Made by a program: the position numbers and the translations under genes. Of a DNA stretch of 64,000 bases, positions 25,059 through 64,000 are shown one piece after another. The stretch spans positions 1 to 64,000 of the forward strand of contig NZ_SRIF01000003.1 in the NCBI RefSeq assembly GCF_004681185.1, written 5' to 3'. The notes under the pieces were generated by a model. The model was not told the origin of the DNA. It worked only from the letters and a program-made list of their open reading frames with translations, and searched no databases. Origin of the DNA: Haloarcula amylovorans (GTDB taxonomy: Archaea > Halobacteriota > Halobacteria > Halobacteriales > Haloarculaceae). How positions within the stretch are numbered: position 1 is the stretch's first letter; the number at the start of each line of letters is the position of its first letter.

Positions 25059-25060
25059 CT

Positions 25061-26176: not shown

Positions 26177-26200
26177 CTAGTACTATCATAACAGCAAGAC

Positions 26201-29586: not shown

Positions 29587-29700
29587 TTCTAAACCTCAAT
29601 ACCATAATGATTCAACTATGACTATAAATCGTATCCAGCGAAAACTGCTTCAGCATCTTCAAAAAGATAATAAGCCGAGTATTCCATATAGAAATAACAC

Positions 29701-30753: not shown

Positions 30754-30760
30754 ATATCGA

Positions 30761-31675: not shown

Positions 31676-31730
31676 CCTATTAACAATATCTGAATAAATT
31701 TGTGTAGTATACCACACATATCTAATAATT

Positions 31731-32447: not shown

Positions 32448-32479
32448 ATATGATGCCTATATGTAAGGTGGTGGGCTCA

Positions 32480-33130: not shown

Positions 33131-33229
33131 GTTGAAAGCAGGACTGAATAAAACGCAATACAGCAAGAAGCCTGCCGATGTTTCCAGTTAGATAGGAGCG
33201 GTCAACCCTTCCGATTCTTAAAGACCGCG

Positions 33230-34921: not shown

Positions 34922-34993
34922 GTAACAATATGAAGCAAGAATAATTAATTCGCACTGGTTTTCTGAATATGGGTCCGATATGTCTATCTCGCA

Positions 34994-36064: not shown

Positions 36065-36243
36065 GAGTCTCTCTTGTCGGGGGAGTTAAAATATTCTTTT
36101 CTAATTCATATCCAGATTTTGACCCCTACAAAAGCGCTGGGAGATTCTCCGAATATATATTGTCTCTATTTCTATGCTATCTCTATGCTTGGTTGGATAG
36201 GGATAAGTGGTGGACTAGTATAGGGGATAATGGATACAACAAA

Positions 36244-37770: not shown

Positions 37771-37855
37771 AAGTATCATGACTCTGTTGGTTTTGATAGC
37801 ATTTCAACATTGAGATCATAAAGAATTTGCATATCGGCTGGATCTTAAGAATAAC

Positions 37856-38734
37856 ATGGGTGTTACTGCTGGTGTCCCTGTACTAAAGAGATCATCTGCT
37901 CTCGCTTCTTTTTTAGAGAGTGTAGAACAAACTAATATTGAATCTGTAATTGTCGCAGATAACGGATATAAGGATGATCGAACAGAAATTTACAACCGAG
38001 AATATCCTTTTGATCTTACTGTTCTGGACTTAGAATTTGATATTGGTATTGGTGCTTGCCGGTATGCGATCGCAGAAGAATTTTCTAATGACTATCTCTT
38101 GGTTGCTGATTGCGATATGGAGGTTCCGAAGAACGTGTCCGTTCTAGTCGATATATTGGAAAACGAATCTGAACTCGGCGGTGTGAGCGGAATTCTTCAA
38201 GAAAGAGGTCGGTTTCGTTCAGGTTCCAGAAATCTTTTTGAGCAGCCGATGTTCGGTGGCGGGACTTCGCTCGTGATTGGTATCGAGTCTTGCCCGGCAG
38301 TAGAACAGATATCTGGCCACTTTGTGGTACGATTTGACTTCCTCACAAATGCAGCCGTAATCCGTAATGAATGTATCAAAGACTATTCTTGGGACAGTAA
38401 TCTTCCAGATAAAGAACATTTGGATTTTTATCTCGGTCAATTTCACGATACAGAATGGGAGTTTGGCGTCTGTCCCGAGGTTCACTTTATACACAATAAA
38501 GGATGCAATGAAGTATATCGGGAAGAATATCGTAATAACGAGGATAGACAGAAGAAAGCTGATGAAATTTTCCAGGAAAAATGGGGGTACGACAAGATCT
38601 GGTCTAAACCACGTACTGAGTGGTTGGACACAAATAATACTACAGAATTAGATTTCCACTCTATTTTCCGGTCCCAGATCCCACTGAAGTACCAGATACT
38701 TCTCCACGATCTACGATTAAAATATTTTGAGTAG
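37856..38734 (+). CDS. GT2-type glycosyltransferase
   Basis: 292 aa, GT-A fold. TAGVPVLKRS begins the domain, with ADNGYKDD for sugar-nucleotide binding and a metal-binding DCDMEV near residue ~87, in the usual DxD position. A segment around PDKEHLDFYLGQ could bind the acceptor. The C-terminal ~90 residues are charged and helical. The gene is AT-rich and plus-strand, after the flippase, so it probably belongs to the same glycan. Confidence 0.72.
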   Translation: MGVTAGVPVLKRSSALASFLESVEQTNIESVIVADNGYKDDRTEIYNREYPFDLTVLDLEFDIGIGACRYAIAEEFSNDYLLVADCDMEVPKNVSVLVDILENESELGGVSGILQERGRFRSGSRNLFEQPMFGGGTSLVIGIESCPAVEQISGHFVVRFDFLTNAAVIRNECIKDYSWDSNLPDKEHLDFYLGQFHDTEWEFGVCPEVHFIHNKGCNEVYREEYRNNEDRQKKADEIFQEKWGYDKIWSKPRTEWLDTNNTTELDFHSIFRSQIPLKYQILLHDLRLKYFE

Positions 38735-38842
38735 ACTACTCAGTGACTACTGGTTACTCTATTTTGGATATAATAGTTAGAAGGATGGAGGTGGTTTACT
38801 CAAACCATAGCTGTTATATCTATATCAAAAAAAGCATATTGT

Positions 38843-40009
38843 GTGCAGGGGTCAATTCGTATCCTCCACAGTCTGACTGATCCTAGGGTAGGAGGCCCAC
38901 AGATTCGTTCGCTGAATGTCGCAAAGAAACTACGAGAACATAATGTTGAAACTGTATTTCTTCTCCCTAGAGGAACAGACTCGTTCGAAAAAAAGGCTCT
39001 CGAAAAAGGGTTCCAAGTTGTTCGACCTGATCTTTACCGTCCAAAGGGTCTGTCTCAGATGGGAGAGAATCTTCAGTACGTAATCCACCTTTACCGTGGC
39101 ATTAGGCAGATATGCCAAATAATCAAAGGTCAGAACATTGATATAGTTCACGCCGGAATGACTATCAACTATCAAGCGTCCCTCGCGGCATATTGGTCTT
39201 CGGTCCCCCTTGTTTGGTTTTTTAATGACACCTCACTACCGATACCACTTAAACAGATTTCGGCCAACATGGGCAGACTCATGGCAGATGAATTAACGGT
39301 TGCTGCAGATGCAGTTCATGAATATTATTTCTCTAAATATACTAATACAAAAAAACTATATCCGCCAGTGGATGTTGATGAGTTTCATCCATCTAATGTT
39401 GGTAAATCAAACCCAGATCTGCATACGGAATTAGGTATTAAACAAAACGTCCCAATTATTGGTACTGTAGGAAACATCAACCCTCTAAAGGGACATGAAT
39501 ATTTATTAAAGTCAATTAGGAACGTCCGCAATCAGAGGAAGAACATAGCTGTGCCTATTGTAGGTCAAATACTTGATTCTAGAAAAGCGTACTACAATCG
39601 AATCTCTGGTCTACAAAATGACTTGGATCTCAACGATTGTGTTTCATTTCTCGGATATAGGTCTGATATTCCTAAGATCTTGTCGCAGTTTGACATATTT
39701 GTTCTCCCTTCAGTAGCTGAGGCTTGCCCGATCTCGGTACTGGAGGCCATGTCTCTGGAGATACCGATAGTCGCAACCGATGTTGGTGGAGTCTCTGAAC
39801 AAATAGTTGATGGTGAGTCAGGATGGATAGTCCCCGCTAAGGACCCGACCGCGCTGGCAGATGCGATTTGCGAGGTATTGGATAATCCTGAGATTGCCGA
39901 TTATCGGGCCCGGTGCGCGCGAAAGAGAGTAGTTGAGCGTTTCTCGATTAAAGCGTGTGTGGAGCGACACCTCGCAGTTTACGAATCAGCACTTTCACGA
40001 AACAATTGA
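38843..40009 (+). CDS. GT4 glycosyltransferase
   Basis: 388 aa, GT-B fold. The N-terminus (RILHSLTDPRVGGPQIRSL) is a Gly-rich acceptor loop. The C-terminal domain shows PPVDVDEFHPSN, GTVGNINPLKGHEYL, FLGYRSDIPKILSQF and the donor motif PSVAEACPISVLEAMSLEIP. No ATG fits; it starts with a GTG at 38843 (or the overlapping GTG at 38841 in another frame, rejected). It is the last intact gene of the AT-rich glycan block; remnants follow. Confidence 0.87.
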   Translation: MQGSIRILHSLTDPRVGGPQIRSLNVAKKLREHNVETVFLLPRGTDSFEKKALEKGFQVVRPDLYRPKGLSQMGENLQYVIHLYRGIRQICQIIKGQNIDIVHAGMTINYQASLAAYWSSVPLVWFFNDTSLPIPLKQISANMGRLMADELTVAADAVHEYYFSKYTNTKKLYPPVDVDEFHPSNVGKSNPDLHTELGIKQNVPIIGTVGNINPLKGHEYLLKSIRNVRNQRKNIAVPIVGQILDSRKAYYNRISGLQNDLDLNDCVSFLGYRSDIPKILSQFDIFVLPSVAEACPISVLEAMSLEIPIVATDVGGVSEQIVDGESGWIVPAKDPTALADAICEVLDNPEIADYRARCARKRVVERFSIKACVERHLAVYESALSRNN

Positions 40010-48029: not shown

Positions 48030-51000
48030 TTGGGTTCCGGCATAGCAGGTGAGCAAATCTTGCAACAAAAACGGGAGAAAGTGATAGCAGTATTGTTCTC
48101 GGCGCTGATGCTGACATCAGTGTTTGCCGGGACAGTTGCCGTGTCTGGGGTGGCTGCAGCCGAGTCTCATTCTCGGGACAAGCCAGCGATGGACCTCGGG
48201 GCGGCTGTCGATCAAGATCAGCGAACGGTCGATGTCTCCACGTCCGCTGTGGACGCGGGTTCGACGCGTGACCGCACAGCAGGGTATTCGCGGGTCGCTG
48301 GGCCCGGGCTGGCGGCACTCCAAGAACCAGGATTTCAGACAGAAACAGTCAAGCAAGGGTTGAACCAGCCCACTGCGATGACGTTCCTGCCCGATGGACG
48401 GGCGTTGCTGTTACAGAAGGGTGGTGACGTTCTCATTGTCGATCCGGCAACCGGGGACTCGTCTACGTACATGACTGTGTCTGATCTCGACACGGCGGGG
48501 GAGGAAGGTCTAATCGACATCACCCTCGACCCGAACTTCGAGCAGAACAATCACATATATATCTACTACACGCCGGAGTCCAGCAGCAAAAACCGGATTG
48601 CACGGTTCACCCATCAAGAGAACAACGGCGGATTAACCAGTAGTGCCGATACAGCGAGCGAATTCGTTGTGTGGGAAGACAACAACGAGCGCCAGAACAA
48701 CTACCATCACGGCGGTGGGCTTGACTTCGGACCCGATGGGAAGCTCTATCTGACGATCGGTGAGGAAGTAGTCGGCTCACAAGCACAGGACCTGACGCAA
48801 GCGGGCGGATCGGTTATCCGCGTCAACAAGGACGGAACTATCCCACAAGATAACCCGTTCGTCGACGGTCCAGGCGGGAACGTCGATGCGATCTGGGCGT
48901 ACGGTTTGCGAAACCCGTTCCGCGCTGAGTGGGACCTCCAGAGTGAGAACCCACGCTACTATATCGCCGAAGTCGGTGGCAACCAGCAGTCGACGGCCCA
49001 AGAGGATCTCCACATTGGAGAGAAGGGCGCGAACTACGGCTGGCCCGACTGCGAAGGGACGTGTAGCGACCCAGCGTACACTGATGCGCTCTACACCTAC
49101 CCACACGAGGGATCGGGGGCTTCGATAACCGGCGGTGTCGTCTATCATGGCGACCAATTCCCAAGCCAGTACGATGGAGCCTACTTCTTCGCCGATTACG
49201 TCCGGGGCTGGATGAAGTACCTCACCTTCGACGACAGTGGTAACGTCAGCAGTGTCACCATGTTTGACGACGACGTGGGTTCAGTCGTCGAAATCGATCA
49301 AGGCCCCAATGGCTCGTTGTACTACCTCGATATCGCCTCGGGGACGCTGAAACGTGTCTCGCACGATGGAACAACTGACGCCGAACCAACGATCGATGCA
49401 CCAGAGAACGTCTTCGTTGACGAAGGAGAAAGCAAACAACTCTCGATTAGTGCATCGGATGCAGACGGCGACTCACTGACCCTCGCAGCGTCGAACCTGC
49501 CCGACTTCGCCTCGTTCACTGACAACGGTGACGGCACGGGGACTCTATCACTGTCCCCGTCCGCTGGCGATGCAGGCCAGTACCAGATGACGATCAGCGC
49601 CAACGATGGGGATGATACGACCAGCAAGACCATTACAATCTCTGTCTTAGAACCCGGCGCCGAACAGGTCGTCCACCGAATCCACGCGGGCAGTGGGGCG
49701 ATCGATGCAATTGACAATGGCCCTGACTGGACGTCGGACTCCCAGTATATGCAGACGGCGGGCGATACGTCCGACTGGACGGGGACGACCTACTCGGTCG
49801 GGTCCTCGGTCCCAGCGAGCACGCCCGATTCGGTCTTCGAAACGGAACGCTACCCGACTGGTGGCAGCACGATTGATTACGATCTGCCGGCGACGCAGGG
49901 TGAGACCTACGAAGTCCGCCTGTACTTCATCGAGCAGTACAGCCAGGCCCAGAACCCCGGTGATCGGGTCTTTGACGTGACTGCCGAGGGCGACACGAAA
50001 CTGAACGACTACGACACTGTCGCTGATGTCGGCTATAAGAACGCGACGATGAAGTCGTTCAACGTCACCGCCGATGATGGCACGCTCGACCTCGCGTTCA
50101 CGCAGGACGGCGGGTCGGCAAACCCGTTCATGTACGGCGTCGAAGTTGTCAAACCTGGTGACGATAGCCAGAATCAGGCCCCCAACGCTGCATTCTCCTA
50201 CTCGCCGTCCGGTCCTAGCGTCGACGAAACGGTGACGTTCGACGCATCGGGATCGAGCGACTCGGACGGGTCAGTCCAGTCCTACAAGTGGGACTTCGAT
50301 GGCGACGGCCAGACCGATGCGACGGGCCAGACCACGTCCCACGCCTTCACTACCAGCGGTGACACGACGGTGACGCTCACCGTCACTGACGATAGCGGTG
50401 CGACCGCAACCGAAACGAAGCAGGTTACTGTGTCGTCGACTGACGGCCAGCAGACCCTCTATCGAGTCAATGCTGGCGGCCCAGAGCTGCCGGCGACCGA
50501 CGGTGGACCAACTTGGACGGCTGACAGTGCCAGCGCCCAGAGCCAATATCTCGTCGATGGTGGTGGCACGACGAACTGGAACACCTTCGAAACTGGTGAG
50601 CTCAACTACTCGGTTGGGACGGCAGTTCCACCGAGCACGCCTGACGCCGTCTTCGAGTACGAACGCTACGAGACGGACGGCGACCTCCAGTGGGCCTTCC
50701 CGGTCACGCAGGGTGACACCTACGAGGTCCGCCTGTATATGATTGAGCAGTACAGCGAAGCTGAGCCGGCTAACGACCGTGTCCTTGACGTAACTTCGGA
50801 GGGCGAGACGAAGCTGAACGACTACAACGTGGTCAGCGACGTCGGCTACAAGAACGGGACCATGAAGACCTTCGAGGCCACTGCCGACAACGGCACCCTC
50901 GATATCACAATCGCACAGGACGGCGGAAACCACAACGCGAACGTCTTCGGTATCGAGATCGTTGAGGCGGGCGCGAATCAGCCGCCGGAAGCGACGATCG

Positions 51001-54000
51001 AAATGCCGGCTGACGGGTCGTCCTTCCAAGCTGGCGACAACGTGACCTTCGCTGGCTCGGCGACGGACCCAGAGGACGGCTCCTTAGATGGATCCCAGCT
51101 CGAATGGCAGGTCCGGTTCCTGCACAATGAGCACTGGCACCCATACCTAGATTCGCAGTCCGGGAGCAGTGGGAACTTCACGGTCCCGACGAGTGGACAC
51201 GACTTCCACGACGACACCGCCTACCAGATCAACCTCACGGCGACGGATGCCGACGGTGCGACTGATACTGAGACGGTAGTTATCGAGCCTGACAAGGTTA
51301 ACGTGACGCTGGACACGCAGCCCAGCGGGCTTGACTTGTACCTCGATGGCATCCCACGTACGACGCCGTACGTCCACGATACGCTGATCGACTTCCAGCA
51401 TACGGTCAGCGCACCGCAGACCCAATGTGTCAACGGCACCCAGTACGAGTTCGATAGCTGGTCCGACGGTAGCCCAGCTGAGCGTACGATTACGGCACCC
51501 GACTCTGATGTCTCGTATACGGCTGTGTATACCGAGGTCGGACAATGTGGGGATAACGAGGTCCAGAGTATCGCTGACGCAGTCGCAAGTCAGAACGCAC
51601 CCACCGACATTATCGGCCTCCAGGAGATCCAGCTGGCGGTTAACTGGTGGGCCAGCGAGGAGCCGGTGCCCGGAACTGACGGGAAAACCATCGGCCAGCT
51701 GGAAATCCAGCAACTCGTCAACATGTGGGCGACGAATGCGACCATTGGCGACGGAAACCAGTCACCAACGGCGGATTTCCACGTCCACGACCCAGTCGCC
51801 GGACAGTCGGCGACCTACCACGCCGAAGCCACTGACGATGACGGCTCGATCACCCAGTATGAGTGGGACTTCGATGGTGACGGCACCTTCGAGGAATCCA
51901 CCACGACCGCGCAGATCCAGCACACCTTCGATTCAGCCGGCGACTATCAGGTGACGCTGCGCGTTACTGACGACGATGGTGCGACTGAGACGGTGACCAA
52001 GACTGTCTCGGTGAGCGAACAGCAGACCGCACAGGTCATGTATCGCGTCAACGCTGGCGGCCCGGAACTGCAGGCAGCTGACGATGGACCGAACTGGACG
52101 GTCGACAACGCGAGCGATCAAAGCCAAAGTCCGTACCTCGTCGGCGACGGTGACGTGACGGTTCACGACCAGCAGTTCAACGTGACCGATAGTGTCCCGT
52201 CGAGTACGCCCTCGCAGTTGTTTGTGACCGAACGCTACGTCGGGCAAGAGATGTCATGGGACTTCCCGGCTACCGCTGGCGATACCTACGAAGTTCGGCT
52301 ATACTACATCGAACAGTGGGCGCCAAATGCACAGGAAGGCGACCGTATCTTCGATGTCAATATCGACGGTCAGACCGTTCAGAACGACTATGACGTGATG
52401 GCCGATGTCGGGTTCGATAACGCGACGATGAAGAGCTTCACCGTTACTGCCGACGACGGCACTCTCGATATTGACTTCGCGCAGGATGGCGGGACCGCCT
52501 ACCCACTAATCTACGGTATCGAAATCATCAAGCCGGGTGACGGCAGCGGGAACCAAGCACCGATCGCATCCGTTTCTCCGTCGGCTACCGATGTTGAGAC
52601 CGGCCAAACCGTCGATTTCGACGCGGCAGCGTCGAGCGACCCTGATGGGTCTATCGCGAGTTACGAGTGGGATTTCGACGGCGATGGGACGACCGATGCG
52701 ACCGGCGAACAAGTCTCACACGCCTTCCAGAGTGCTGGTACCTACCAAGTTACCCTCACGGTTACCGACAATGACGGCGCGACCGCGACGACCACCGAGC
52801 AGGTCAGCGTCTCGGCGCCCGCCGAGGAAGGCAGTGCCAGTATCTCGCTCAACGAAGGCAACAACAACATCGATACGAGTACCTGGAAAACCGGTGCAGT
52901 CGAGGTCGAAAACACCGGCGACAAACAAATCGAGTCGGTGACGTTCGACCTCTCGACGGCAGCCATGCCCGATATCGTCTTCGGTCCGCTGACCGACAGT
53001 GGGACGCCGGGTAATGCGGTTAAGGACGCCTCGGGCGCGGGTGGGTTCCAGACGACGTACAGCCAACCCCACGATGGCAATCCCGACGACGGCTACGACG
53101 CACTGACGCTCACGTTCGATAACTTCGAACCGGGAGAGACGTTCACCGCCTCGCTCGACACGGACGCCACGAGTATCAAAGGCGCTACGCCGATCCAACA
53201 GGGGCTCGAGATTTCCGGCCTCGAGACGACTGGGACTACCGTGACAATCGAATACGCCGACGGGACAACGCAGACGACGACGCCGTTCAGCGACGGCAGT
53301 GCGGCAGGCGCCGTCGCGACGGCCAAATCGGATGTGCCGGCAGCGCCGACTCTCAACGTTCAGGATGTGACCCTCAACGAGAGTGCGCTCGACGCTCGAC
53401 ATAGTGCTGCGACCGTCTCGTCGGCCCAACAGACCATCGAGATCAGCGGGGAACCTGGTTCGACCGTTCGAGTGCTTCGCTTCGAGGGTGAACTGAATCT
53501 CGAGGACGTGAGTGGGTACGATCTCGAACCCTACGAGGCGAATCGAATCCTGAACTTCGACGAACAGACGGTCACGCTCGACAGCAACGGCGAGGCGACC
53601 GTCGACATGACGCTCACGAACAGCAGCGCGAACGGCGGCCTCAACTACGTCGTTGCGACTGTCGAAGACGATCAGGGCGACACTGGTCTCACCTCGGATC
53701 CGGTTGTCCTTGACTATGACCAGAATGCCGGTAGTCAGCCGTCTGACGCGGAGGCGACGGTGGAGATTACAACCACCGAAGACGCCTTCCCGTCGGGGAT
53801 GGTTGCGCTCCAGCACGCCACCACCTACTTCGAGGACTCTGTGACGATCTCGAACTCGGGGGACGTGCCGATCGAATCGGTAACGATCGACAAGGAAACG
53901 GCCATCCTGCCAGACTTCGTGTATGACCCAACAGCCTGTGCGGGTGATGGTGGCTGTAATCCTGGGAACACGGATCTGCGCATCGTAAACGAGGGCGGTA

Positions 54001-56318
54001 CCGGCTTGGCTAGCCACCAGTTCCTCGAACCGAAGAATGGACAAGACGGAACTGACGGCTACGAGCAACTCCAGCTCAACTTCGACGACTTCCAGTCCGG
54101 GGAAACGATCGGCATTGCGACGGACGGCGACCCGAACAGCATCAAGGGCGGCGGCGGCGCACAATCTGAACTCGCTGGCCCCGAATCGGGCATCGACCTA
54201 ACTGGTGCCACGGTTACGGTCGAATACGCGGATGGTACGACGTCGTCTGTCAACACCTTCAATAACGGGTCGCTCGCAGGCTCGACGGCCGTCGCGCGGA
54301 CTGATACGTCGATGGCACCGACTCTCGGCGTTCAGGATGTCTCGCTGTCGTCGACGACGCTCTCCGAGCGCCACACCGCGGCGACAGTCGGTGACGACAG
54401 CCAGACGATCGTTGTCACCGGGCAGCCCGGAACCTCGGTCCAGTTGATGCACGCAGAGTCGACCCTGTTGCTCGAAGATGTCCCCGAGTACAACGGCTCT
54501 CCCGGCTACGACATTGAGGCATATGAGGCGAACAACGTCGAGAACTACACTATCAAGTCGGTCGACCTCGGCGCCGACGGTGAGGCTACCGTCAATGTGA
54601 CGCTCACTGACCTCGAAGGCGAACTCACGAGTCCGGCAGACGACAGCGGCTTCAACTACTTCGTTGCCGCAAGCGAAGGAACGAATGGCCAGACCACGAC
54701 CTCGAACGTTGTCGTATTGAAGTACGAGCCGGGCGCGAACGACCCGACACTCGATCCGGTGAGCGACCAGTTCCTCGAGGAGGGCCAGACTGAACAGCTC
54801 ACCGTCAGCGCCACCGATCCGAATGGTGACGCGCTATCGCTGTCAGCGTCGAACCTGCCAAGCTTCGCGAGTATCACCGACAATGGCGATGGGACGGGAA
54901 CGCTGACGCTCGCCCCACAGTCTGGCGACGCTGGTCAATACCAGTTCACGCTTACTGCCACTGACGGGCAGGCGACTGACTCGCAGACAGTCACCGTCTC
55001 GGTCAGCGAACCTGGTCAAGCGCAGGTCATCCATCGCTTGCACGCTGGGAGTGGGACGGTTGCAGCAATCGACAACGGTCCTGACTGGGCATCGGACTCC
55101 CAGTATATGCAGACGGCGGGCGATACGTCTGACTGGACGGGGACCACCTACAATGTCGGGTCCTCGGTCCCAGCGAGCACGCCCGATGCGGTGTTCGAGA
55201 CCGAGCGGTATCCCACCGGCGGAAGCACGATTGATTACGATCTGCCGGCGACGCAGGGTGAGACCTACGAAGTCCGCCTCTACTTCATCGAACAGTACAA
55301 CGAGGCCCAGAACCCCGGTGACCGGGTCTTCGACGTGACTGCTGAAGGCCAGACGAAGCTGAACGACTACGATACCGTCGCTGATGTCGGCTATAAGAAC
55401 GCGACGATGAAGTCGTTCAACGTCACCGCCGATGATGGCACGCTCGACCTCACGTTCTCCAAAGAGAGCGGGAGTCAGAATCCGTTCATGTACGGAATCG
55501 AGGTCGTCAAGCCCGGTGACGACAGTCAAAACCAGGCGCCAAATGCGTCGTTCACTGCCGCAACTACTGATGTCGAGACCGGCCAAGCTGTCGATTTCGA
55601 CGCGAATGCGTCGAGCGATTCCGACGGCTCAATCGCGAGCTACGAGTGGGACTTCGACAGTGATGGGACCACCGATGCGACCAGTGAACAGGTCTCTCAC
55701 GCGTTCTCGACCGCGGGAACGTATCAAGTGGCCCTCACTGTTACCGACGACGACGGTGCGACCAACACCACCACGACCACGATCACCGTCAGCGAGCCTG
55801 CAACCAACCAGGTCCTCTACCGCGTCAATACGGGCGGATCCGAGATCACCATGACGGATAGTCCCGACTGGACCGCTGACAACAACACTGCCCAGAGTCA
55901 GTATCTAGAGGTCGGAGCCGACCTCACGGAACACGATCAGCAGTTCAACGTTACTGACAGTGTTCCAGCAGATACGCCGGACCAGATCTTCGTCACCGAG
56001 CGCTGGCCGACGAGTGGCTCAACGTTAGAATATGCGTTCCCGGCCACCACCGGTGAGAGCTACGAGGTTCGCCTCTACTTCATCGAACAGTGGGAGCCCA
56101 ACAATCAGGAGGGCACGCGAATCTTTGACGTGACCGCTGAGGGCCAGACCAAACTGAATGACTACGACATCATGACCGACGTTGGCTTCGACAACGCAAC
56201 GACGAAGTCCTTCGAAGTCACCGCCGACGACGGCACGCTCGACCTCTCGATCGTGCAAGACGGCGGGTCGGCGAGTCCGTTCATCTATGGTATCGAGATC
56301 GTCCAGGAGGGGAGCTGA
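48030..56318 (+). CDS. Giant secreted protein: sugar dehydrogenase plus five malectin-like domains
   Basis: 2762 aa from a TTG; the next in-frame candidate, TTG at 48060, is equally good, giving the signal-like KREKVIAVLFSALMLTSVFA. Modules by position: a glucose/sorbosone dehydrogenase-type beta-propeller (~48340-49360; HHGGGLDFGPDGKLYLTIGE, GLRNPFR); cadherin-like (49381); malectin-like 1 (49658); PKD (50173); malectin-like 2 (50448); Ig-like; beta-sandwich; a paired-helix module (51555-51755; WW..VPGT-G..W); PKD; malectin-like 3 (52030); PKD; two long homologous sandwich repeats (52830, 53745); cadherin-like; malectin-like 4 (55018); PKD; malectin-like 5 (55800). Malectin-like domains bind sugars. 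No C-terminal anchor. It heads a cluster of four secreted genes. Confidence 0.88.
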   Translation: MGSGIAGEQILQQKREKVIAVLFSALMLTSVFAGTVAVSGVAAAESHSRDKPAMDLGAAVDQDQRTVDVSTSAVDAGSTRDRTAGYSRVAGPGLAALQEPGFQTETVKQGLNQPTAMTFLPDGRALLLQKGGDVLIVDPATGDSSTYMTVSDLDTAGEEGLIDITLDPNFEQNNHIYIYYTPESSSKNRIARFTHQENNGGLTSSADTASEFVVWEDNNERQNNYHHGGGLDFGPDGKLYLTIGEEVVGSQAQDLTQAGGSVIRVNKDGTIPQDNPFVDGPGGNVDAIWAYGLRNPFRAEWDLQSENPRYYIAEVGGNQQSTAQEDLHIGEKGANYGWPDCEGTCSDPAYTDALYTYPHEGSGASITGGVVYHGDQFPSQYDGAYFFADYVRGWMKYLTFDDSGNVSSVTMFDDDVGSVVEIDQGPNGSLYYLDIASGTLKRVSHDGTTDAEPTIDAPENVFVDEGESKQLSISASDADGDSLTLAASNLPDFASFTDNGDGTGTLSLSPSAGDAGQYQMTISANDGDDTTSKTITISVLEPGAEQVVHRIHAGSGAIDAIDNGPDWTSDSQYMQTAGDTSDWTGTTYSVGSSVPASTPDSVFETERYPTGGSTIDYDLPATQGETYEVRLYFIEQYSQAQNPGDRVFDVTAEGDTKLNDYDTVADVGYKNATMKSFNVTADDGTLDLAFTQDGGSANPFMYGVEVVKPGDDSQNQAPNAAFSYSPSGPSVDETVTFDASGSSDSDGSVQSYKWDFDGDGQTDATGQTTSHAFTTSGDTTVTLTVTDDSGATATETKQVTVSSTDGQQTLYRVNAGGPELPATDGGPTWTADSASAQSQYLVDGGGTTNWNTFETGELNYSVGTAVPPSTPDAVFEYERYETDGDLQWAFPVTQGDTYEVRLYMIEQYSEAEPANDRVLDVTSEGETKLNDYNVVSDVGYKNGTMKTFEATADNGTLDITIAQDGGNHNANVFGIEIVEAGANQPPEATIEMPADGSSFQAGDNVTFAGSATDPEDGSLDGSQLEWQVRFLHNEHWHPYLDSQSGSSGNFTVPTSGHDFHDDTAYQINLTATDADGATDTETVVIEPDKVNVTLDTQPSGLDLYLDGIPRTTPYVHDTLIDFQHTVSAPQTQCVNGTQYEFDSWSDGSPAERTITAPDSDVSYTAVYTEVGQCGDNEVQSIADAVASQNAPTDIIGLQEIQLAVNWWASEEPVPGTDGKTIGQLEIQQLVNMWATNATIGDGNQSPTADFHVHDPVAGQSATYHAEATDDDGSITQYEWDFDGDGTFEESTTTAQIQHTFDSAGDYQVTLRVTDDDGATETVTKTVSVSEQQTAQVMYRVNAGGPELQAADDGPNWTVDNASDQSQSPYLVGDGDVTVHDQQFNVTDSVPSSTPSQLFVTERYVGQEMSWDFPATAGDTYEVRLYYIEQWAPNAQEGDRIFDVNIDGQTVQNDYDVMADVGFDNATMKSFTVTADDGTLDIDFAQDGGTAYPLIYGIEIIKPGDGSGNQAPIASVSPSATDVETGQTVDFDAAASSDPDGSIASYEWDFDGDGTTDATGEQVSHAFQSAGTYQVTLTVTDNDGATATTTEQVSVSAPAEEGSASISLNEGNNNIDTSTWKTGAVEVENTGDKQIESVTFDLSTAAMPDIVFGPLTDSGTPGNAVKDASGAGGFQTTYSQPHDGNPDDGYDALTLTFDNFEPGETFTASLDTDATSIKGATPIQQGLEISGLETTGTTVTIEYADGTTQTTTPFSDGSAAGAVATAKSDVPAAPTLNVQDVTLNESALDARHSAATVSSAQQTIEISGEPGSTVRVLRFEGELNLEDVSGYDLEPYEANRILNFDEQTVTLDSNGEATVDMTLTNSSANGGLNYVVATVEDDQGDTGLTSDPVVLDYDQNAGSQPSDAEATVEITTTEDAFPSGMVALQHATTYFEDSVTISNSGDVPIESVTIDKETAILPDFVYDPTACAGDGGCNPGNTDLRIVNEGGTGLASHQFLEPKNGQDGTDGYEQLQLNFDDFQSGETIGIATDGDPNSIKGGGGAQSELAGPESGIDLTGATVTVEYADGTTSSVNTFNNGSLAGSTAVARTDTSMAPTLGVQDVSLSSTTLSERHTAATVGDDSQTIVVTGQPGTSVQLMHAESTLLLEDVPEYNGSPGYDIEAYEANNVENYTIKSVDLGADGEATVNVTLTDLEGELTSPADDSGFNYFVAASEGTNGQTTTSNVVVLKYEPGANDPTLDPVSDQFLEEGQTEQLTVSATDPNGDALSLSASNLPSFASITDNGDGTGTLTLAPQSGDAGQYQFTLTATDGQATDSQTVTVSVSEPGQAQVIHRLHAGSGTVAAIDNGPDWASDSQYMQTAGDTSDWTGTTYNVGSSVPASTPDAVFETERYPTGGSTIDYDLPATQGETYEVRLYFIEQYNEAQNPGDRVFDVTAEGQTKLNDYDTVADVGYKNATMKSFNVTADDGTLDLTFSKESGSQNPFMYGIEVVKPGDDSQNQAPNASFTAATTDVETGQAVDFDANASSDSDGSIASYEWDFDSDGTTDATSEQVSHAFSTAGTYQVALTVTDDDGATNTTTTTITVSEPATNQVLYRVNTGGSEITMTDSPDWTADNNTAQSQYLEVGADLTEHDQQFNVTDSVPADTPDQIFVTERWPTSGSTLEYAFPATTGESYEVRLYFIEQWEPNNQEGTRIFDVTAEGQTKLNDYDIMTDVGFDNATTKSFEVTADDGTLDLSIVQDGGSASPFIYGIEIVQEGS

Positions 56319-56322
56319 TACC

Positions 56323-58806
56323 ATGGACGAACAAAACACTGTGACGAACGACTCAGCGTCCGATTCGAGGCCTACGGATAGGGGCATCAGTCGCAGAGAC
56401 GTGCTCCGCGGAACGTCGGCCCTCGGTGTCGCCGGTATGGCGTCACGTCTCCCCGTCGGGCGGGCCCAAGCGGCCCCTGATGACACCACCTTCGTGAGCG
56501 TCCCGGATATGTACAACTGGGACATTGCCAACCCCCAGTCCGGATGGGAAGACGCAATTGACTGGTTCTTCACCCAACTCACGTCCGTAGAGGGCGCCGA
56601 ATTCGCTCTCTCTGCGGGGGATATCATGGACGCCCGCTGGTGGACCGACAAACAGCAGGTGCAGACGCGGGCAGATGAATACTGGGGCGGATACAAACAG
56701 CGGTTCGAAGACAGTAATCTCCCAGTGTACGTCGCGCCCGGTGATCACGAACGGGGCGACAACGACTGGCCGGACTGGAAGCTAGATCTGGTCCCCACGT
56801 TCGAACAGAAATTCGTGGAGATCTTCGATCACCCGACTAACGGCCCGGCAGGAAAAGAGGAATTGGCGTACTACTTCGTCAAAGACAACGCGCTCTTCGT
56901 CACGGTTGACACGTGGGAGCTGAAAAATGGCGAGGCACATCTGAGCGTTACAGGCGACCAACTCACGTGGTTCGAAAATATCCTCTCGAACCATCAAGAC
57001 AAGGACTTCATCATCGTTCAGGGTCATGTCCCGGTAATTTCAGGTGTCAACACCCGAAATTCAAGCGGGCTGTACCTTGAGGGTGGCCAGTCGTCGGAGT
57101 TCTGGCAGGTGATGAAGCAGTACGGGGTTGATGCGTACCTGTGTGGCGAACACCACGCTATCACCACCGACAAGGTGGATGGTATCTGGCAGATCGTCCA
57201 TGGATCCCTCTGGGGAACGCACACGAATCTGAACTATCTCGTGGGCACCGTAGGGTCAGACACTCTCGAACTCGAACTCAAGGAATTCGATGTCAATTAC
57301 GGCGGGGGGTACATCGATCACATTAACCGGAGTGATACGAATGCACCCCGCGAGACCGTCACCATCTCTGACAGCAGTAAACAGAACGGGCCAACAACCG
57401 TTGAGTCAATCACTATCGACAACTCGACGTCTGACGACCCGAGTGGTGGGGGCTGTCCGGTTTTCAAAACCACGCCTGACCAGACCGGAAATGGAAACGA
57501 TGGCGCGCTTGAAGGGGCTGTATCACAGGTGTCCGGCAAGGACGGCAAAGGAATAGAGTTCAACGGCGGGTACATTAGCGTAGAGGAAAGCTCAAGCCTT
57601 GATGTCCAGCAGCCGCCGTTCACGGTAGAGTGCTGGGTGAAACCTACTGATCCGAACGCAGGTGGCAACGGGTACGAACCATATGTGACGAAGGTCGGCG
57701 AGACCGGACAGTATTCGCTCCATCGGACGTCACTGGACAATGAAGCGAATGGTCAACTCGAGTTCGCGGTGAACTCTGGAGGGGAGTTCTACACGCCTCG
57801 AGCTCCGGTGCCCGACGACTGGCAAGGGACTTGGCACCACCTCGCCGGCGTCTACGATGGTAGCGCGGTCAAACTCTATGTTGACGGTACGGAGAAGGAC
57901 AGTGTCTCACTATCCAGTCCGCTTACAGCCACGACAAGTCCGGTTGAGATTGGCCGTAACTTCGGGAACCCGACGCGAAAACTCACGGCTGGCACGGTCA
58001 TCGACCGAGTGCGGATCCATCGAGCAGGGCTCACTGCGAGCGAACTCGACCAATCGGACCCTGCTGGAAGTGCAAACCCTGTCCTCTGGTTTGACTTCGA
58101 GTCAATCAACACCGACGCGACTGGTGCACCGACAAGTGACACCTATCTCAGCGATATCGAAGCGATCGATTTCACTGTCGGCTACACCTTCGACGATTTC
58201 GGCAGAAACGAGGCTGTCACCGGAAACCCACTGCAAGTGGATGGACAAACCTATGATAAGGGCATCGGGACGCACGCAACATCCGAGATCCGGTATTGCC
58301 TCGATCAGAAGGTAGCCCGGTTCACGGCGATGGTCGGCATGGACGAGAAAGGCGGCGAGTTCACTGGCGGAGCTGCAGGCGGGAACGGGGTCGTCTTCCG
58401 GGTGCTTGGTGATGGACAGATTCTCGCCGAGAAGGGACCGGTGACCCATGATATGGGAACCATGTCTGTTGATGTTGATGTATCCGACGTCAGTGTACTC
58501 TCGCTCGTCGCCGATGGGAACGGCGATACGTCCTATGATCACGCCGACTGGATCGAGGCACAGGTCACCACCCAGACGATCCCAGAAGCCATCGCAGGGG
58601 CTGACGGGACGATCACTCTCTCCGAAATCCAGATTGCGATCGATTGGTGGTCGGCTGGCGATCCGGTTCCTGGAACAGGCGGTGAGACAATCGGATTCAA
58701 CGAGATGCTAGAGCTCATCGACCTGTGGGCGACAGGCGAGTCCGTCAATAGTGACAGCGGTACCACGAGCCAGTCGCTTGAGCTGACCGGATATGGGGGC
58801 AACTGA
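56323..58806 (+). CDS. Tat-exported metallophosphoesterase with LamG and NPCBM-like domains
   Basis: 827 aa. Start is the ATG 56323, just after a Shine-Dalgarno-like GGAGGGGAG; the long frame extension is out of frame with the preceding gene. Tat signal GISRRDVLRGTS. A calcineurin-type phosphoesterase (~45-300) shows LSAGDIMDAR, VAPGDHERGDND, IVQGHVPV and GEHHA; the family's usual first-motif D-x-[HQ] is VPDMYNWD, so metal binding there is uncertain. LamG-like concanavalin fold (~380-590), NPCBM-like carbohydrate-binding region (~607-751), then a paired-helix module (~752-809) shared with the neighbours. 4 bp after the preceding gene, so co-transcribed. Substrate unknown; likely a phosphoesterase acting outside the cell. 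Confidence 0.85.
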   Translation: MDEQNTVTNDSASDSRPTDRGISRRDVLRGTSALGVAGMASRLPVGRAQAAPDDTTFVSVPDMYNWDIANPQSGWEDAIDWFFTQLTSVEGAEFALSAGDIMDARWWTDKQQVQTRADEYWGGYKQRFEDSNLPVYVAPGDHERGDNDWPDWKLDLVPTFEQKFVEIFDHPTNGPAGKEELAYYFVKDNALFVTVDTWELKNGEAHLSVTGDQLTWFENILSNHQDKDFIIVQGHVPVISGVNTRNSSGLYLEGGQSSEFWQVMKQYGVDAYLCGEHHAITTDKVDGIWQIVHGSLWGTHTNLNYLVGTVGSDTLELELKEFDVNYGGGYIDHINRSDTNAPRETVTISDSSKQNGPTTVESITIDNSTSDDPSGGGCPVFKTTPDQTGNGNDGALEGAVSQVSGKDGKGIEFNGGYISVEESSSLDVQQPPFTVECWVKPTDPNAGGNGYEPYVTKVGETGQYSLHRTSLDNEANGQLEFAVNSGGEFYTPRAPVPDDWQGTWHHLAGVYDGSAVKLYVDGTEKDSVSLSSPLTATTSPVEIGRNFGNPTRKLTAGTVIDRVRIHRAGLTASELDQSDPAGSANPVLWFDFESINTDATGAPTSDTYLSDIEAIDFTVGYTFDDFGRNEAVTGNPLQVDGQTYDKGIGTHATSEIRYCLDQKVARFTAMVGMDEKGGEFTGGAAGGNGVVFRVLGDGQILAEKGPVTHDMGTMSVDVDVSDVSVLSLVADGNGDTSYDHADWIEAQVTTQTIPEAIAGADGTITLSEIQIAIDWWSAGDPVPGTGGETIGFNEMLELIDLWATGESVNSDSGTTSQSLELTGYGGN

Positions 58807-58992
58807 TCCATGAGACAAGCGGAGCCGATAGAAAGAATTCCAAGACTATTCGCACGCCCCCCTCCTCTTGGAGGGGCGATCTGACAGGCTGCAGTGGTCC
58901 CATTCCGGTTATCCGGAAATCGGCTATCCGCTGTATCCCGGCTGTACAGACTGATGAGACTAGATAAACGTACACGAATACATGAAATATCA

Positions 58993-61900
58993 ATGAAGAG
59001 ACCTACAACACAGATCCAACGGTTGGTGGCGCTTAGCATAGCCGTAACGGTCGTCATATCGGCGGCTGGACCAGTCGGGATTGCAGTCGCACAGCCAACG
59101 GTAACGGTCTCACAGACGGCACAATCGGACACCACCGTCGCGCCAGGAGACACGATTACTGTCGAGGCAACGCTGGACTACAGCGAAGTCAATTCGCCAG
59201 GAATCGATGTCACTCTGCCGTCGGGCTGGACCGTCGTGAGTCACTCCGACGATGGTGGCACGTACGGCCCGCCACAACCTGCGTGGGCCTGGCTCGAAGG
59301 CGACGCTGATGGCGTCGCTGGGAGCCATACCGTCACCTACACCGTACAGGTGCCCGCGGATGCCACGGAAGGGGAGTACACGATTAGTGCGAACGGGTCG
59401 GCCATCGATACATCCGATAGTTCGTTCGTGACCAGTACTGACAAGATGACCGTCACCGTCGACGAACAGCAGTCACCCGCGGCGAGTGCTGGGGCTGACC
59501 AGACGGTTGTGGAAGGGACGACCGTGGCGTTAGACGCGTCTACCTCCAGCGATCCGGATGGCGACCCACTGGATTACTCGTGGACAGTCACGGATGACGC
59601 GGGTACGGGCGTGACCCTCTCAGACACTACGACAGCCCAACCGACCTTTACTGCACCGAGTGTCACTACCGAGACGACGCTCACCTTCCAAGTCACAGTG
59701 TCCGACGGAAACGGCAATACCGACACCGACACGGTCAACGTGACCGTCCAACCAATCGATACGCAACCCAGTGTGTCGGTATCGCAATCTGCGACGTCAC
59801 CGACGACTGTCGCGCCGGGAGAATCAGTTGCGGTTGAGACGACGCTGGACTACAGTGATGTGAACTCGCCAGGCATCAACGTGACGCTTCCGTCGGGGTG
59901 GACTGTTGTAAGCCATTCCGACGATGGCGGTACCTATGGCCCACCAAAGCCCGCATGGACGTGGCTCGAAGGTGATGCTGACGGCGTTGCCGGCAGCCAC
60001 ACTGTTACCTACACCGTGCAGGTGCCCGCCGATGCCATGGAGGGAGAGTACACGATCAGTGCAAACGGGTCAGGAATCGACCCAGCCGACAGTTCGACGG
60101 TCGCTGATACCGATGGGCTGACCGTCACCGTCGTGGAGCCGACGCAATCGCCGACGGCAGATGCGGGCCCCGATCAAACGGTCGATGAAGGGGCAACTGT
60201 GACTCTGGACGCTTCGGGTTCGGCCGATTCGGACGGCTCAATCAGTAGCTATCAGTGGACGCAGACCGAGGGGTCGTCGGTGACCCTCTCGGACACCGCA
60301 GCGGCCCAACCAACGTTCACTGCACCTAGTGTCGATAGCGAGACAACGCTCACCTTCCAGGTCGCGGTGACCGATAACGATGGCGAGGAGAGTACAGATA
60401 CGGTCAATGTGACTGTCCAGCCTGTCGAGACGCAGCCCAGCGTGTCGATGTCTCAAACCGCAACTTCGGCGACCACCGTTGCACCGACTGAGACAGTCAC
60501 TATTGAGGGAACGATCGATTATAACGACGTGAATGCCCCGGCAATCGACGTTACCCTGCCATCGGGCTGGACCGTCGTGAGTCATACCGACGATGGTGGA
60601 ACGTACGGCCCGCCGAAGCCAGCCTGGGCCTGGACCGAAGGTGATACTGATGGCGTCGCTGGGAACCATACCGTCACCTACACCGTGCAGGTGCCCGGTG
60701 ATGCATCGCCAGGAGAGTACACGATCTCAGCTGAGGGGTCGGCTATTGACCCAGCTGATGACTCTTCTGTGGCCGATACCGACGCGGTGACTGTCATAGT
60801 CGAAGAACAGAACCAAGCACCGGCAGCAGACGCCGGCGCTGACCAGACGGTCGAGGAAGGGATGACTGTGACGCTCGATGCTACTGAATCGAGTGACGCG
60901 GATGGATCGATCGATACCTACGCCTGGACTCAGACCGCCGGACCATCGGTGAGCCTCTCGGATGCCACGGCAACCCAGCCGACGTTCACCGCCCCCGACG
61001 TTGACAGCGAGACGACGCTCACCTTCCAAGTTGACGTGACTGACGACGATGGGAAGGTGGGTACGGATACGATTAACGTGACCGTCCAACCTGTCGACAC
61101 GCAGCCAAGTGTGTCGATCTCCCAGGTCGCGACTTCATCGACCACCGTCGCACCGAACGAGACGATCGCTGTCGAGGCGACCCTAGAGTACAGCGACGTC
61201 AATGCTCCGGCAATCGACGTTACCCTGCCATCGGGCTGGACTGTCGTGAGTCACACCGATGATGGCGGCACGTACGGCCCACCGAAACCTGCGTGGACGT
61301 GGATTGAAGGTGATGCCGACGGCGTCGCTGGGAACCATACCGTCACCTACACCGTGCAGGTTCCCAAAGATGCGGCCGCGGGCGACTACGAGCTGTCGGC
61401 AGCGGGATCGGGTATCGATCCAGCCGATGACTCCCCGGTGACTAGCACCGATACGCTGGCCGTTACTGTCCCAGAGCAGAACCAAGCACCGGCAGCAGAC
61501 GCTGGCGCTGACCAGACGGTTGAGGAAGAGACGCCTGTGACGCTTGATGCCACTGGATCGAGCGATTCAGACGGCACCGTCGATACCTACGCCTGGACCC
61601 AGACTACCGGGCCATCGGTGAGCCTCTCGGATACCGCAGTGGCCCAACCGACGTTCACCGCCCCCGACGTTGACAGCGAGACGACGCTCACCTTCCAGGT
61701 CGTAGTGACCGATGACGATGGTGAGGCGGATACTGATATGGTCAACGTCACTGTCCAAGAACCACCCAACGAGCAACCTTCAGCGACCTTCACTACCGCA
61801 CCGGCAGATCCGCTGGCCGGAGAGACAGTGAACTTCAACGCCTCGCAGTCGAACGACGCCGATGGAGCCATCGCGAGCTATGAATGGACCATCGAAACCG

Positions 61901-62766
61901 CCAGTATGGGCGGCGAAACCACGCTCCTCGATGCCGACTTTGAGGGCGGGTCACTATCGGCCGCGGGATGGACCCATGATGCGTTTGAGTCGTCTGCATC
62001 GGCCGGTGTCAACGACGCCACGTCAAACTCCGGTAGCGCTGCTGCGTTCCACCATGGCGGGGCCGGCGCCCTCGTCTCCCCGACGCTGGACACCAGCAGC
62101 ACGTCCTCGGTGACGATCGAATACTGGATCCAGAAGGGCCACGACTCGTTCAGTGAGAATCCCGACGCGAACGACGATGAGGACCTCAGTGTCGAATATC
62201 TCTCCGCATCCGGTGAGTGGGTCGAAATTGACCGGGTCGACTCCGCAGTCGCACCCGGAGCAACCTCCAACGGCAGTGTAACTGTCGACAGCGCTCAAGC
62301 GCTGCATGACGGCTTCCAGCTTCGATTCCGTCAGGAAGGTGCTGACGCTACCAACGGGGACTATTGGCACGTTGACGATGTCTCGGTCACCGCCGAATCC
62401 GGTAGTGAAAGCGGCACTGTAACGAAGAGCGGTCAGACGATCGCACACACGTTCAACCAACCCGGCGAGTACGAGGTCGCGCTGACCGTCACCGATGATG
62501 ACGGTGCGACCGCCCAAACCACACAGATGATCACCATCGACGAACAGCCGACGGACTCGGTCCCAGAAGCCGTCGCCAGTCTGAACGACGACGGCGATGA
62601 TTCGAAGATCGAAACACTGGAGATCCAGCAGGCGATCGACCTCTGGATCGAAGATGATGACGTGCCCGGGACCGGCGGCGAAACCATCTCGACCCAGCAG
62701 ATCCAGCAGCTCATCGACATATGGGTCGAGGATGAGACGATTGAAGCAATCAATGGAGGCAGTTAA
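58993..62766 (+). CDS. Secreted scaffold-like protein with four tandem repeats and paired-helix module
   Basis: 1257 aa; ATG 58993 precedes a Sec signal (LVALSIAVTVVISAAGPVGI). Four tandem ~220-aa units (from 59092, 59761, 60421 and 61090) each pair an unfamiliar domain (LPSGWTVVSHSDDGGTYGPP... with PAWTWLEGDADG) with a PKD-like domain (LDASGSADSDGSISSYQW). A fifth PKD at 61770-62540 contains an inserted MAM-like or jelly-roll segment (~61915-62400). The end (62560-62750) is the paired-helix module (EIQQAIDLWIEDDDVPGTGG). No enzyme motif: a structural scaffold is likely. Transcribed in the same direction as its neighbours, with a 187-bp gap and a possible TATA box upstream. Confidence 0.85.
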   Translation: MKRPTTQIQRLVALSIAVTVVISAAGPVGIAVAQPTVTVSQTAQSDTTVAPGDTITVEATLDYSEVNSPGIDVTLPSGWTVVSHSDDGGTYGPPQPAWAWLEGDADGVAGSHTVTYTVQVPADATEGEYTISANGSAIDTSDSSFVTSTDKMTVTVDEQQSPAASAGADQTVVEGTTVALDASTSSDPDGDPLDYSWTVTDDAGTGVTLSDTTTAQPTFTAPSVTTETTLTFQVTVSDGNGNTDTDTVNVTVQPIDTQPSVSVSQSATSPTTVAPGESVAVETTLDYSDVNSPGINVTLPSGWTVVSHSDDGGTYGPPKPAWTWLEGDADGVAGSHTVTYTVQVPADAMEGEYTISANGSGIDPADSSTVADTDGLTVTVVEPTQSPTADAGPDQTVDEGATVTLDASGSADSDGSISSYQWTQTEGSSVTLSDTAAAQPTFTAPSVDSETTLTFQVAVTDNDGEESTDTVNVTVQPVETQPSVSMSQTATSATTVAPTETVTIEGTIDYNDVNAPAIDVTLPSGWTVVSHTDDGGTYGPPKPAWAWTEGDTDGVAGNHTVTYTVQVPGDASPGEYTISAEGSAIDPADDSSVADTDAVTVIVEEQNQAPAADAGADQTVEEGMTVTLDATESSDADGSIDTYAWTQTAGPSVSLSDATATQPTFTAPDVDSETTLTFQVDVTDDDGKVGTDTINVTVQPVDTQPSVSISQVATSSTTVAPNETIAVEATLEYSDVNAPAIDVTLPSGWTVVSHTDDGGTYGPPKPAWTWIEGDADGVAGNHTVTYTVQVPKDAAAGDYELSAAGSGIDPADDSPVTSTDTLAVTVPEQNQAPAADAGADQTVEEETPVTLDATGSSDSDGTVDTYAWTQTTGPSVSLSDTAVAQPTFTAPDVDSETTLTFQVVVTDDDGEADTDMVNVTVQEPPNEQPSATFTTAPADPLAGETVNFNASQSNDADGAIASYEWTIETASMGGETTLLDADFEGGSLSAAGWTHDAFESSASAGVNDATSNSGSAAAFHHGGAGALVSPTLDTSSTSSVTIEYWIQKGHDSFSENPDANDDEDLSVEYLSASGEWVEIDRVDSAVAPGATSNGSVTVDSAQALHDGFQLRFRQEGADATNGDYWHVDDVSVTAESGSESGTVTKSGQTIAHTFNQPGEYEVALTVTDDDGATAQTTQMITIDEQPTDSVPEAVASLNDDGDDSKIETLEIQQAIDLWIEDDDVPGTGGETISTQQIQQLIDIWVEDETIEAINGGS

Positions 62767-62769
62767 CCA

Positions 62770-64000
62770 ATGCGAATAAGTAACACGACAGTCCGGAGCA
62801 TCGGAGTAATTACTGTTGTCGTGGCGGTGGCACTGTGGGCTGTCACGCCCGCAGTAGCCATCCCGCAGGCAAACGGCACGATCGGCATAGAACAGACAGC
62901 TGACCAACAGACAGTCGCTCCAGGTGATACCGTCACGATTCAAACGACGATCAATGCCAGCGGATACAATGCACCGGCGGTTAGTGCCGACCTGCCGTCT
63001 GGCTGGTCGATACAGAGTCAATCAGCGGAAGGACCCGCATCGTACAAATCCCTCACGAATGAGTGGGTCTGGTTACAGGGCGGAGAGTACATGCTCACTT
63101 ACACCGTCGCAGTGCCTGACGATGCGAGCGGTGAGTACACGGTGACGAGTGAGGGCACGGCAGTTGTCCCAGCTGACGATAGCTTCGTGAGTAACGAGGC
63201 AGCGACAACGATTACAGTTGCGGAGACACCGACGAATCAGCCGCCCACCGCTTCGGTCAGTGGGCCGGATAGTTTGCAGGTTGGCGAGCAAGCGACCTTC
63301 GAGGCATCGGCCTCCGATGACGGGTCACTCGCCAGCTACGAGTGGAACTTTGGCGACGATAGCACGGCGACCGGCCAGTCTGTCTCCCACGCCTACAGCT
63401 CACCTGGCGACTATACTGTCCAACTGACCGTCACCGACGACGACGGAGCCTCGACTACGGCGACCACGACTGTCTCGGTCAGCGAGGCGCCCGACCCAGC
63501 GACCCTCCAAGTCACGAGCCTGAATGCACCCTCGTCAGCGACCCAAGGTGACACCGTTACGGTTGAGGCCGTCGTCGAGAATACTGGCGATATGCAGGGA
63601 ACCCAAGATGTCGAGTTCGCCTTCGATGGCTCAGTTCTCGACAGCAAATCGGTCACGCTCGCAAGTGGTGCAAGCGATACCATCTCCTTCACCGTCGATA
63701 CGACCGACGTGGCTCCTGGCACGTATACGCATACTGTGTCTACCGCTGACGACAGTGCCACTGCAGAGCTCACGATCACTGACCCCGCGTCTGAACCAGA
63801 CCCTGGCACAGTCGACGTGAGCCTCGAACCCGCCGAACAGAGCGCTGCAACCGATGACGAGGTGACCTACGAAATCGTCGTTACTGGGACTGACGAAGTC
63901 GGAGCCGTTGAGGGAAGTGTCACCCTCTCGAACCCCGACGCCGCAACGATTACCGGGCTGACCACGTCTGCGGCAGACGGCAATGAGGACATCTCCGTCA
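62770..64000 (+). CDS. Secreted PKD/CARDB protein with cohesin-like end (partial)
   Basis: Runs off the window; 410 codons seen. ATG 62770 lies 3 bp after the preceding stop, so coupled. Signal VITVVVAVALWAVTPAVA. Then one domain related to the neighbour's repeat (DLPSGWSIQSQSAEGPASYK, NEWVWLQGGEYMLTYTVAVP), a PKD domain (YEWNFGDDSTATGQSVSHAY), a CARDB-like domain (~63505-63780), and from ~63805 a beta-sandwich start (VSLEPAEQSAATDDEVTYEI, VEGSVTLSNPDAATITGL) like haloarchaeal cohesin-type domains. The cohesin assignment is tentative because the end is missing. Confidence 0.8.
   Translation, partial: MRISNTTVRSIGVITVVVAVALWAVTPAVAIPQANGTIGIEQTADQQTVAPGDTVTIQTTINASGYNAPAVSADLPSGWSIQSQSAEGPASYKSLTNEWVWLQGGEYMLTYTVAVPDDASGEYTVTSEGTAVVPADDSFVSNEAATTITVAETPTNQPPTASVSGPDSLQVGEQATFEASASDDGSLASYEWNFGDDSTATGQSVSHAYSSPGDYTVQLTVTDDDGASTTATTTVSVSEAPDPATLQVTSLNAPSSATQGDTVTVEAVVENTGDMQGTQDVEFAFDGSVLDSKSVTLASGASDTISFTVDTTDVAPGTYTHTVSTADDSATAELTITDPASEPDPGTVDVSLEPAEQSAATDDEVTYEIVVTGTDEVGAVEGSVTLSNPDAATITGLTTSAADGNEDISV

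Follow-up and report, generated by a model that had tools for sequence, protein, structure and literature searches.

Four consecutive haloarchaeal genes probably encode a secreted, cell-anchored cohesin-dockerin assembly of three tiers, in which a helical module depleted of calcium loops acts as a dockerin on the cohesin of the fourth protein. The genes lie in a stretch of 64,000 nucleotides analysed here as ‘the window’ (G000:C23:1-64000), which is part of a 5.04 Mb assembly. In the model that we propose, proteins 1-3, each carrying a single helical module, would dock via that module onto the cohesin of protein 4; the module itself would be a dockerin whose second calcium loop is lost and whose first, in the window copies, is mostly gone too. 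Protein 4 would then serve as an ‘adaptor’ scaffoldin, with its own calcium dockerin plugging into a membrane-anchored cohesin protein, the putative anchor being encoded beside a paralogous locus (on contig C30) in this genome, and immediately downstream of the set in related loci. The resulting complex would keep its glycan-binding and its oxidising domains at the cell surface, probably on exopolysaccharide that the cell itself makes. Binding of the module to cohesin, along with its specificities and stoichiometry, and the nature of the substrate, are what we infer from the findings set out below. A preliminary description of the region had suggested a secreted assembly joined by the module and a cohesin; this idea is supported by the predicted fold of the cohesin-like domain, the dockerin adjacent to it, the conservation of the gene set, co-occurrence and linkage across genomes, and the interchange of docking units between orthologous proteins.

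Architecture of the four proteins

As previously described, positions 48030-64000 are filled by four consecutive plus-strand genes, found as such in the ORF listing; the small gaps between them (1 base, about 190 bases and 3 bases) suggest that all four are carried on one transcript. All had been called ‘giant’ proteins, a term that suits the first and third (2762 and 1290 aa) but not the second and fourth (828 and 552 aa).

Protein 1 (48030..56318, plus strand, 2762 aa) starts with a haloarchaeal surface-glycoprotein signal peptide (TIGR04207, 28 bits against a cut-off of 24.6) and combines a glucose/sorbosone dehydrogenase domain (GSDH, E 3.6e-56) with five malectin domains (Malectin, five stretches, E 1.5e-96), PKD domains and an internal helical module. 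Protein 2 (56320..58806, plus strand, 828 aa counted from its ATG) has a twin-arginine-type signal at the N-terminus, scoring below the cut-off of the TAT model, followed by a weakly matched metallophosphoesterase-like domain (purple acid phosphatases, E 0.0025-0.004), a LamG-like domain (Laminin_G_3, E 1e-22), an NPCBM domain (E 6e-35) and, at the C-terminus, the helical module. In protein 3 (58894..62766, plus strand, 1290 aa, with a likely ATG at 58993) a signal peptide precedes alternating NEW3/DUF11-like and PKD domains, and the module is again C-terminal. Protein 4 (62770..64000 within the window, plus strand, 552 aa) runs on to C23:64428, its stop lying 428 bases beyond the window end; from the N-terminus it comprises a signal peptide, NEW3-like, PKD and CARDB domains, the cohesin-like domain and a C-terminal calcium dockerin.

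A domain search of the four proteins found no glycoside hydrolase. The proposed role in glycan processing is thereby narrowed: the sugar dehydrogenase and the five malectins are solid, but the phosphoesterase is weak, a glycosidase is absent and the neighbouring genes are of a synthesis type.

A helical module related to dockerins

The module occurs three times in the window, at 51558..51755 in protein 1, at 58573..58746 in protein 2 and at 62554..62742 in protein 3 (all on the plus strand), in each case within a few bases of the place originally described. In a whole-genome search with the first copy, the second is matched at E 7.3e-13 and the third at 2.1e-9; the paired-helix pattern that had been read as common to the three proteins is thus a homologous unit, far beyond chance. 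Seven copies exist in the genome as a whole, the remaining four being on contigs C30 (in a paralogous giant, with a strong match to module 1), C1 (two copies) and C12; one of those on C1 is in a small NEW3-like protein, and the weaker ones each sit at the C-terminus of a polysaccharide deacetylase, one on C1 and one on C12 (L021 and L022). A profile built from the seven recovers every copy at E 1e-24 or better. Each of the two deacetylase genes adjoins a divergent NEW3/PKD gene, and on C1 a secreted cohesin-like protein is encoded 5 kb away.

The module has no match in Pfam or NCBIfam, and PF00404, the dockerin model, does not match five of the module copies even at E 10. An AF2 model of module 1 (pLDDT 87.7) has helices at residues 8-13, 24-36 and 50-62; its structural matches are weak, with dockerins at the top, both by Foldseek (ranks 1-2, E 2.5-3.3) and by VIA (ranks 1-4, Z only 3.1-3.4). 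Searched against the PDB, the module profile matches only EF-hand loops, and weakly, and an hhalign comparison with haloarchaeal calcium dockerins is likewise weak, extending over the first half only (probability 5.8%, P 0.0065). Relatives of the module keep a canonical first EF-hand loop, for example DEDDDGEIDDAE; the same holds for a module in a Ca. Acetothermia MAG (DTNGNGTLEDSE), and a second, uncultured bacterial MAG also encodes a module with an EF-hand first half. The second calcium loop has gone from all copies of the module, its place being taken in nearly all by VPGTxGxTI, and the window copies additionally lack most calcium ligands of the first loop, which is intact only in relatives. 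Haloarchaeal and bacterial copies alike conserve two long, tryptophan-bearing helices and the VPGTxG turn.

Since the first half of the relatives is an EF-hand loop and the second loop has been replaced, we read the module most simply as a dockerin derivative from which one calcium loop is missing, or largely both in the case of the window copies. The general loop-helix pattern is that of EF-hand pairs, with the first loop intact in relatives; the module departs from such pairs in the VPGTxGxTI substitution and, in the window, in the shortage of calcium ligands. Named genera that carry it include Halobellus, Halorubrum, Halogranum and Halorientalis, and a search of viral contigs found no relatives. 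In three bacterial MAG proteins the module, with its first EF-hand loop intact or partly intact, is followed by a CHU_C/FlgD-like C-terminal domain.

The cohesin-like domain and calcium dockerin of protein 4

The fourth gene had been described as ending in a cohesin-like β-sandwich. A full cohesin-like domain is present (C23:63805-64191, plus strand, with its first half, 63805..64000, inside the window), but the end of the protein is a true calcium dockerin (PF00404, C23:64252-64392, beyond the window). The latter exceeds the PF00404 cut-off of 22.9 in the genome search (28.4 bits) and in the protein scan (23.8 bits), and has two canonical calcium loops, DVNGNGEFNVVD and DFNGDGEINVGD.

The Pfam Cohesin model, PF00963, finds no match in this genome nor in eight haloarchaeal proteins that carry the domain, and a 17-sequence cohesin profile searched against the whole PDB places two R. 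flavefaciens cohesin chains first, weakly (E 0.02-0.03). Because the domain is truncated at the window end, the fold was modelled on a Halogranum homologue, a cohesin-module fusion, and not on the window chain; a profile from three cohesin copies of the window's own genome recovers this Halogranum domain at 3.7e-14. The AF2 model has a pLDDT of mostly 80-98 in its cohesin part, with low confidence (about 50-60) in the module part. Searched with Foldseek against the PDB, the cohesin part returns cohesins in the first 42 of 42 rows (best E 1.4e-10), and VIA aligns it at Z 16.4 over 129 residues at 2.0 Å, with no non-cohesin family near the top; the structural matches include the archaeal A. fulgidus cohesin. 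The sandwich of protein 4 is accordingly assigned a cohesin fold, as predicted in its homologue. The idea that it is a PKD/CARDB variant was rejected on this result.

Haloarchaea commonly secrete proteins that combine PKD, CARDB and malectin domains as mosaics and, with the Pfam Cohesin model silent, the four proteins could be taken for ordinary examples of the kind, forming no specific assembly and bearing the sandwich as a generic surface Ig-like domain. We consider this highly improbable, as it is contradicted by the modelled cohesin fold, by the presence of an above-cut-off Pfam dockerin adjoining the sandwich, and by the conserved giant-adaptor-anchor gene order.

The genome encodes four cohesins and seven modules, but PF00404 finds only two calcium dockerins in it, each belonging to an adaptor; cohesins are thus left over, and the modules are their likeliest partners. 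The second adaptor belongs to the paralogous locus on C30, where a 2502-aa giant with a module is accompanied by an adaptor of 651 aa built like protein 4, and also by L019, whose 331 aa comprise a signal peptide, a single cohesin and a membrane segment at the C-terminus. This ‘anchoring scaffoldin’ architecture (signal peptide, one cohesin, C-terminal hydrophobic segment) is seen in L019, L115, L116 and L136; directly downstream of the window locus no anchor gene was found. In a cohesin tree, Halobellus-type loci have their adaptor cohesin in one supported group and their anchor cohesin in another, the deep branches being too poorly resolved for specificities to be read from them.

Conserved loci and interchange of docking units

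The order giant, adaptor, then anchor or scaffold recurs in Halobellus, Halorubrum, Halogranum and others. The whole four-gene set is found in a Halobellus-group genome (G418; genus label g49, as for G327), where the giant is 64.5% identical to that of the window over 1616 aligned positions, the second protein 82% over 817, the third 56% over 906 and the adaptor 46% over 292; a gene for a 286-aa membrane-anchored cohesin follows. Values this high across family boundaries suggest that the set was transferred horizontally. A similar set on a Halobellus plasmid (malectin giant, PKD protein, dockerin protein and a 275-aa hypothetical protein) sits among sugar-nucleotide and glycosyltransferase genes.

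In four genomes (G021, G024, G052 and G056), giants orthologous to those of C30 and Halobellus, at 45-69% identity, end in a C-terminal calcium dockerin and have no module; they lie upstream of proteins with two cohesins and a dockerin, and G021 and G024 additionally encode three-cohesin scaffoldins. The Halogranum giant is split at the module: its first half, 67% identical to the Halobellus protein, has a calcium dockerin at its end, and its second half begins with a cohesin and the module. The G056 giant is split in the same way, without a module. Across the loci examined, the module thus occupies the dockerin's place in orthologous giants, one or the other being present, and no polypeptide there carries both.

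Several related arrangements were seen. In G063, five cohesin-like domains are combined with a dockerin in one protein, by its architecture a multi-cohesin scaffoldin, and a neighbouring protein pairs a cohesin with a membrane segment at its C-terminus. Several genomes of the family have a recurrent divergent gene pair, encoding a small membrane-anchored cohesin (about 300 aa) and a calcium-dockerin protein of 1400-2900 aa. The C-termini of three two-cohesin proteins consist of acidic DDGD repeats and then a repeated RDEIAQAKYxxxFxxLS...YDAQFG domain, which could be a further surface-attachment unit.

Association of modules, cohesins and dockerins across genomes

A neighbourhood survey among haloarchaea, as the preliminary description had proposed, finds that module genes usually adjoin cohesins. 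Of 392 genomes surveyed in the order, 32 have a module, and 28 of these also have a cohesin; among the 360 without a module the figure is 119 (p 1.6e-9). A cohesin lies within 10 kb of 22 of the 30 strong modules, where 0.43 would be expected. These co-occurrence and linkage counts, like that for the dockerins below, are not phylogenetically independent. For two of the eight strong modules beyond 10 kb, the carrier is a giant whose own gene set includes a cohesin 12-15 kb away. Among 146 genomes of the family, a listed calcium dockerin is found within 5 kb of 53 of 73 cohesins (about 0.5 expected).

This strong linkage of calcium dockerins to cohesins holds in many genomes without any module, and modules are conversely found in genomes where no cohesin was detected: G018 has three, with neither a cohesin nor a PF00404 dockerin detectable, and six further genomes have module matches, some of them weak, with no cohesin detected. 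Near-complete genomes are among these, G018 above all, and they are what speaks most strongly against the proposed docking; their modules may have further partners, or their cohesins may be too divergent for detection. Taken with the loss of calcium ligands from the window copies, such findings would fit a reading in which cohesins are bound by calcium dockerins only and the module is a dockerin-derived remnant, kept as a compact spacer or stability domain. We think this unlikely, as a spacer has no need of the tryptophan-bearing helices and VPGTxG turn that are kept from haloarchaea to bacteria, and neither the adjacency of cohesin and module genes nor the either/or presence of module and calcium dockerin on orthologous giants favours it.

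The proteins on which modules occur, partly in genomes without a detectable cohesin, bear on another possibility. Besides the polysaccharide deacetylases they include a serine protease and LVIVD-type proteins, and the module might therefore be a unit for surface retention or self-association, recognising the S-layer, a glycan or another module, with its link to cohesins arising only through shared surface complexes. This we consider quite unlikely, since it leaves unexplained both the interchange with calcium dockerins in orthologous giants and the split Halogranum giant. Docking of the module onto cohesin, as proposed above, remains our preferred interpretation. Four LVIVD-type beta-propeller proteins end in a diverged module, and their genomes are without a detectable cohesin.

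Relation to known assemblies

Assembly through cohesins and dockerins is known chiefly from anaerobic bacteria, with scattered archaeal cases. The haloarchaeal set resembles the cellulosomes of Clostridium thermocellum and Ruminococcus flavefaciens in its cohesin fold, its calcium dockerin, an adaptor with both cohesin and dockerin, a separate membrane-anchored cohesin and its carbohydrate-binding modules. It differs in lacking plant-polysaccharide hydrolases and dockerin-bearing glycoside hydrolases, in having on three subunits a calcium-loop-less helical module where the dockerin would be, and in its location near exopolysaccharide-synthesis genes. A cellulosome for plant polymers was rejected, given that glycosidases are absent.

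Closer in kind are the non-cellulosomal cohesins and dockerins of archaea, namely the Archaeoglobus fulgidus cohesin (2XDH) and those of ANME archaea (PMC9012536), whose reported proteins combine one dockerin with up to five cohesins (PMC9012536). Before these, according to that paper with reference to Peer et al. 2009, archaea with cohesins and dockerins were thought to be without multi-cohesin scaffoldins (PMC9012536). What sets the present system apart, besides its occurrence in Halobacteria, is a conserved gene set that includes a cohesin anchored in the membrane and an alternative docking module. Among secreted haloarchaeal enzymes, type I dockerins have been reported for Natronoglomus hydrolases (PMC10963439) and a GAG-lyase locus (PMC13260240), where they were assigned to substrate binding and cohesins went unmentioned; in other haloarchaeal genomes analysed here, by contrast, cohesins adjoin dockerins, and the published ‘substrate-binding’ dockerins may instead be assembly tags.

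The open-access literature searched yielded no description of a cohesin system in haloarchaea; whilst the principle is itself known, a haloarchaeal system with this unrecognised docking module is apparently undescribed. More broadly, and more tentatively, it is possible, at somewhat under even chances, that dockerins comprise a second class, mostly without calcium in its haloarchaeal form and common to bacteria such as Ca. Acetothermia, which docks onto archaeal cohesins, and that haloarchaea use it to build membrane-anchored scaffoldin complexes of several tiers on exopolysaccharide of their own and not for the degradation of plant fibre. Judging from this locus, many haloarchaea assemble several proteins into anchored complexes at their surface, and docking units can swap within orthologous proteins; salt-adapted, possibly calcium-independent docking pairs would also be of use in protein engineering.

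Genomic neighbourhood and glycan context

Some 8 kb upstream of the four-gene set is a polysaccharide-biosynthesis cluster (24087..40009, mostly on the plus strand with some genes on the minus), encoding GT2 and GT1/GT4 glycosyltransferases, UDP-GlcNAc 2-epimerase, an NAD epimerase, a UDP-sugar dehydrogenase, a flippase and a methyltransferase; this neighbourhood points to the synthesis of polysaccharide, not its breakdown. A role for the complex on the cell's own exopolysaccharide would follow from these neighbours, together with the malectin, NPCBM and LamG domains, the sugar dehydrogenase domain and the module-bearing deacetylases.

Elsewhere in the window, positions 1461-2975 encode an Orc1/Cdc6-type replication initiator, and the contig, 330 kb in length, is possibly a secondary replicon. 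The minus strand at 15606-21779 holds a giant ORF of 2057 aa with right-handed beta-helix/NosD domains.
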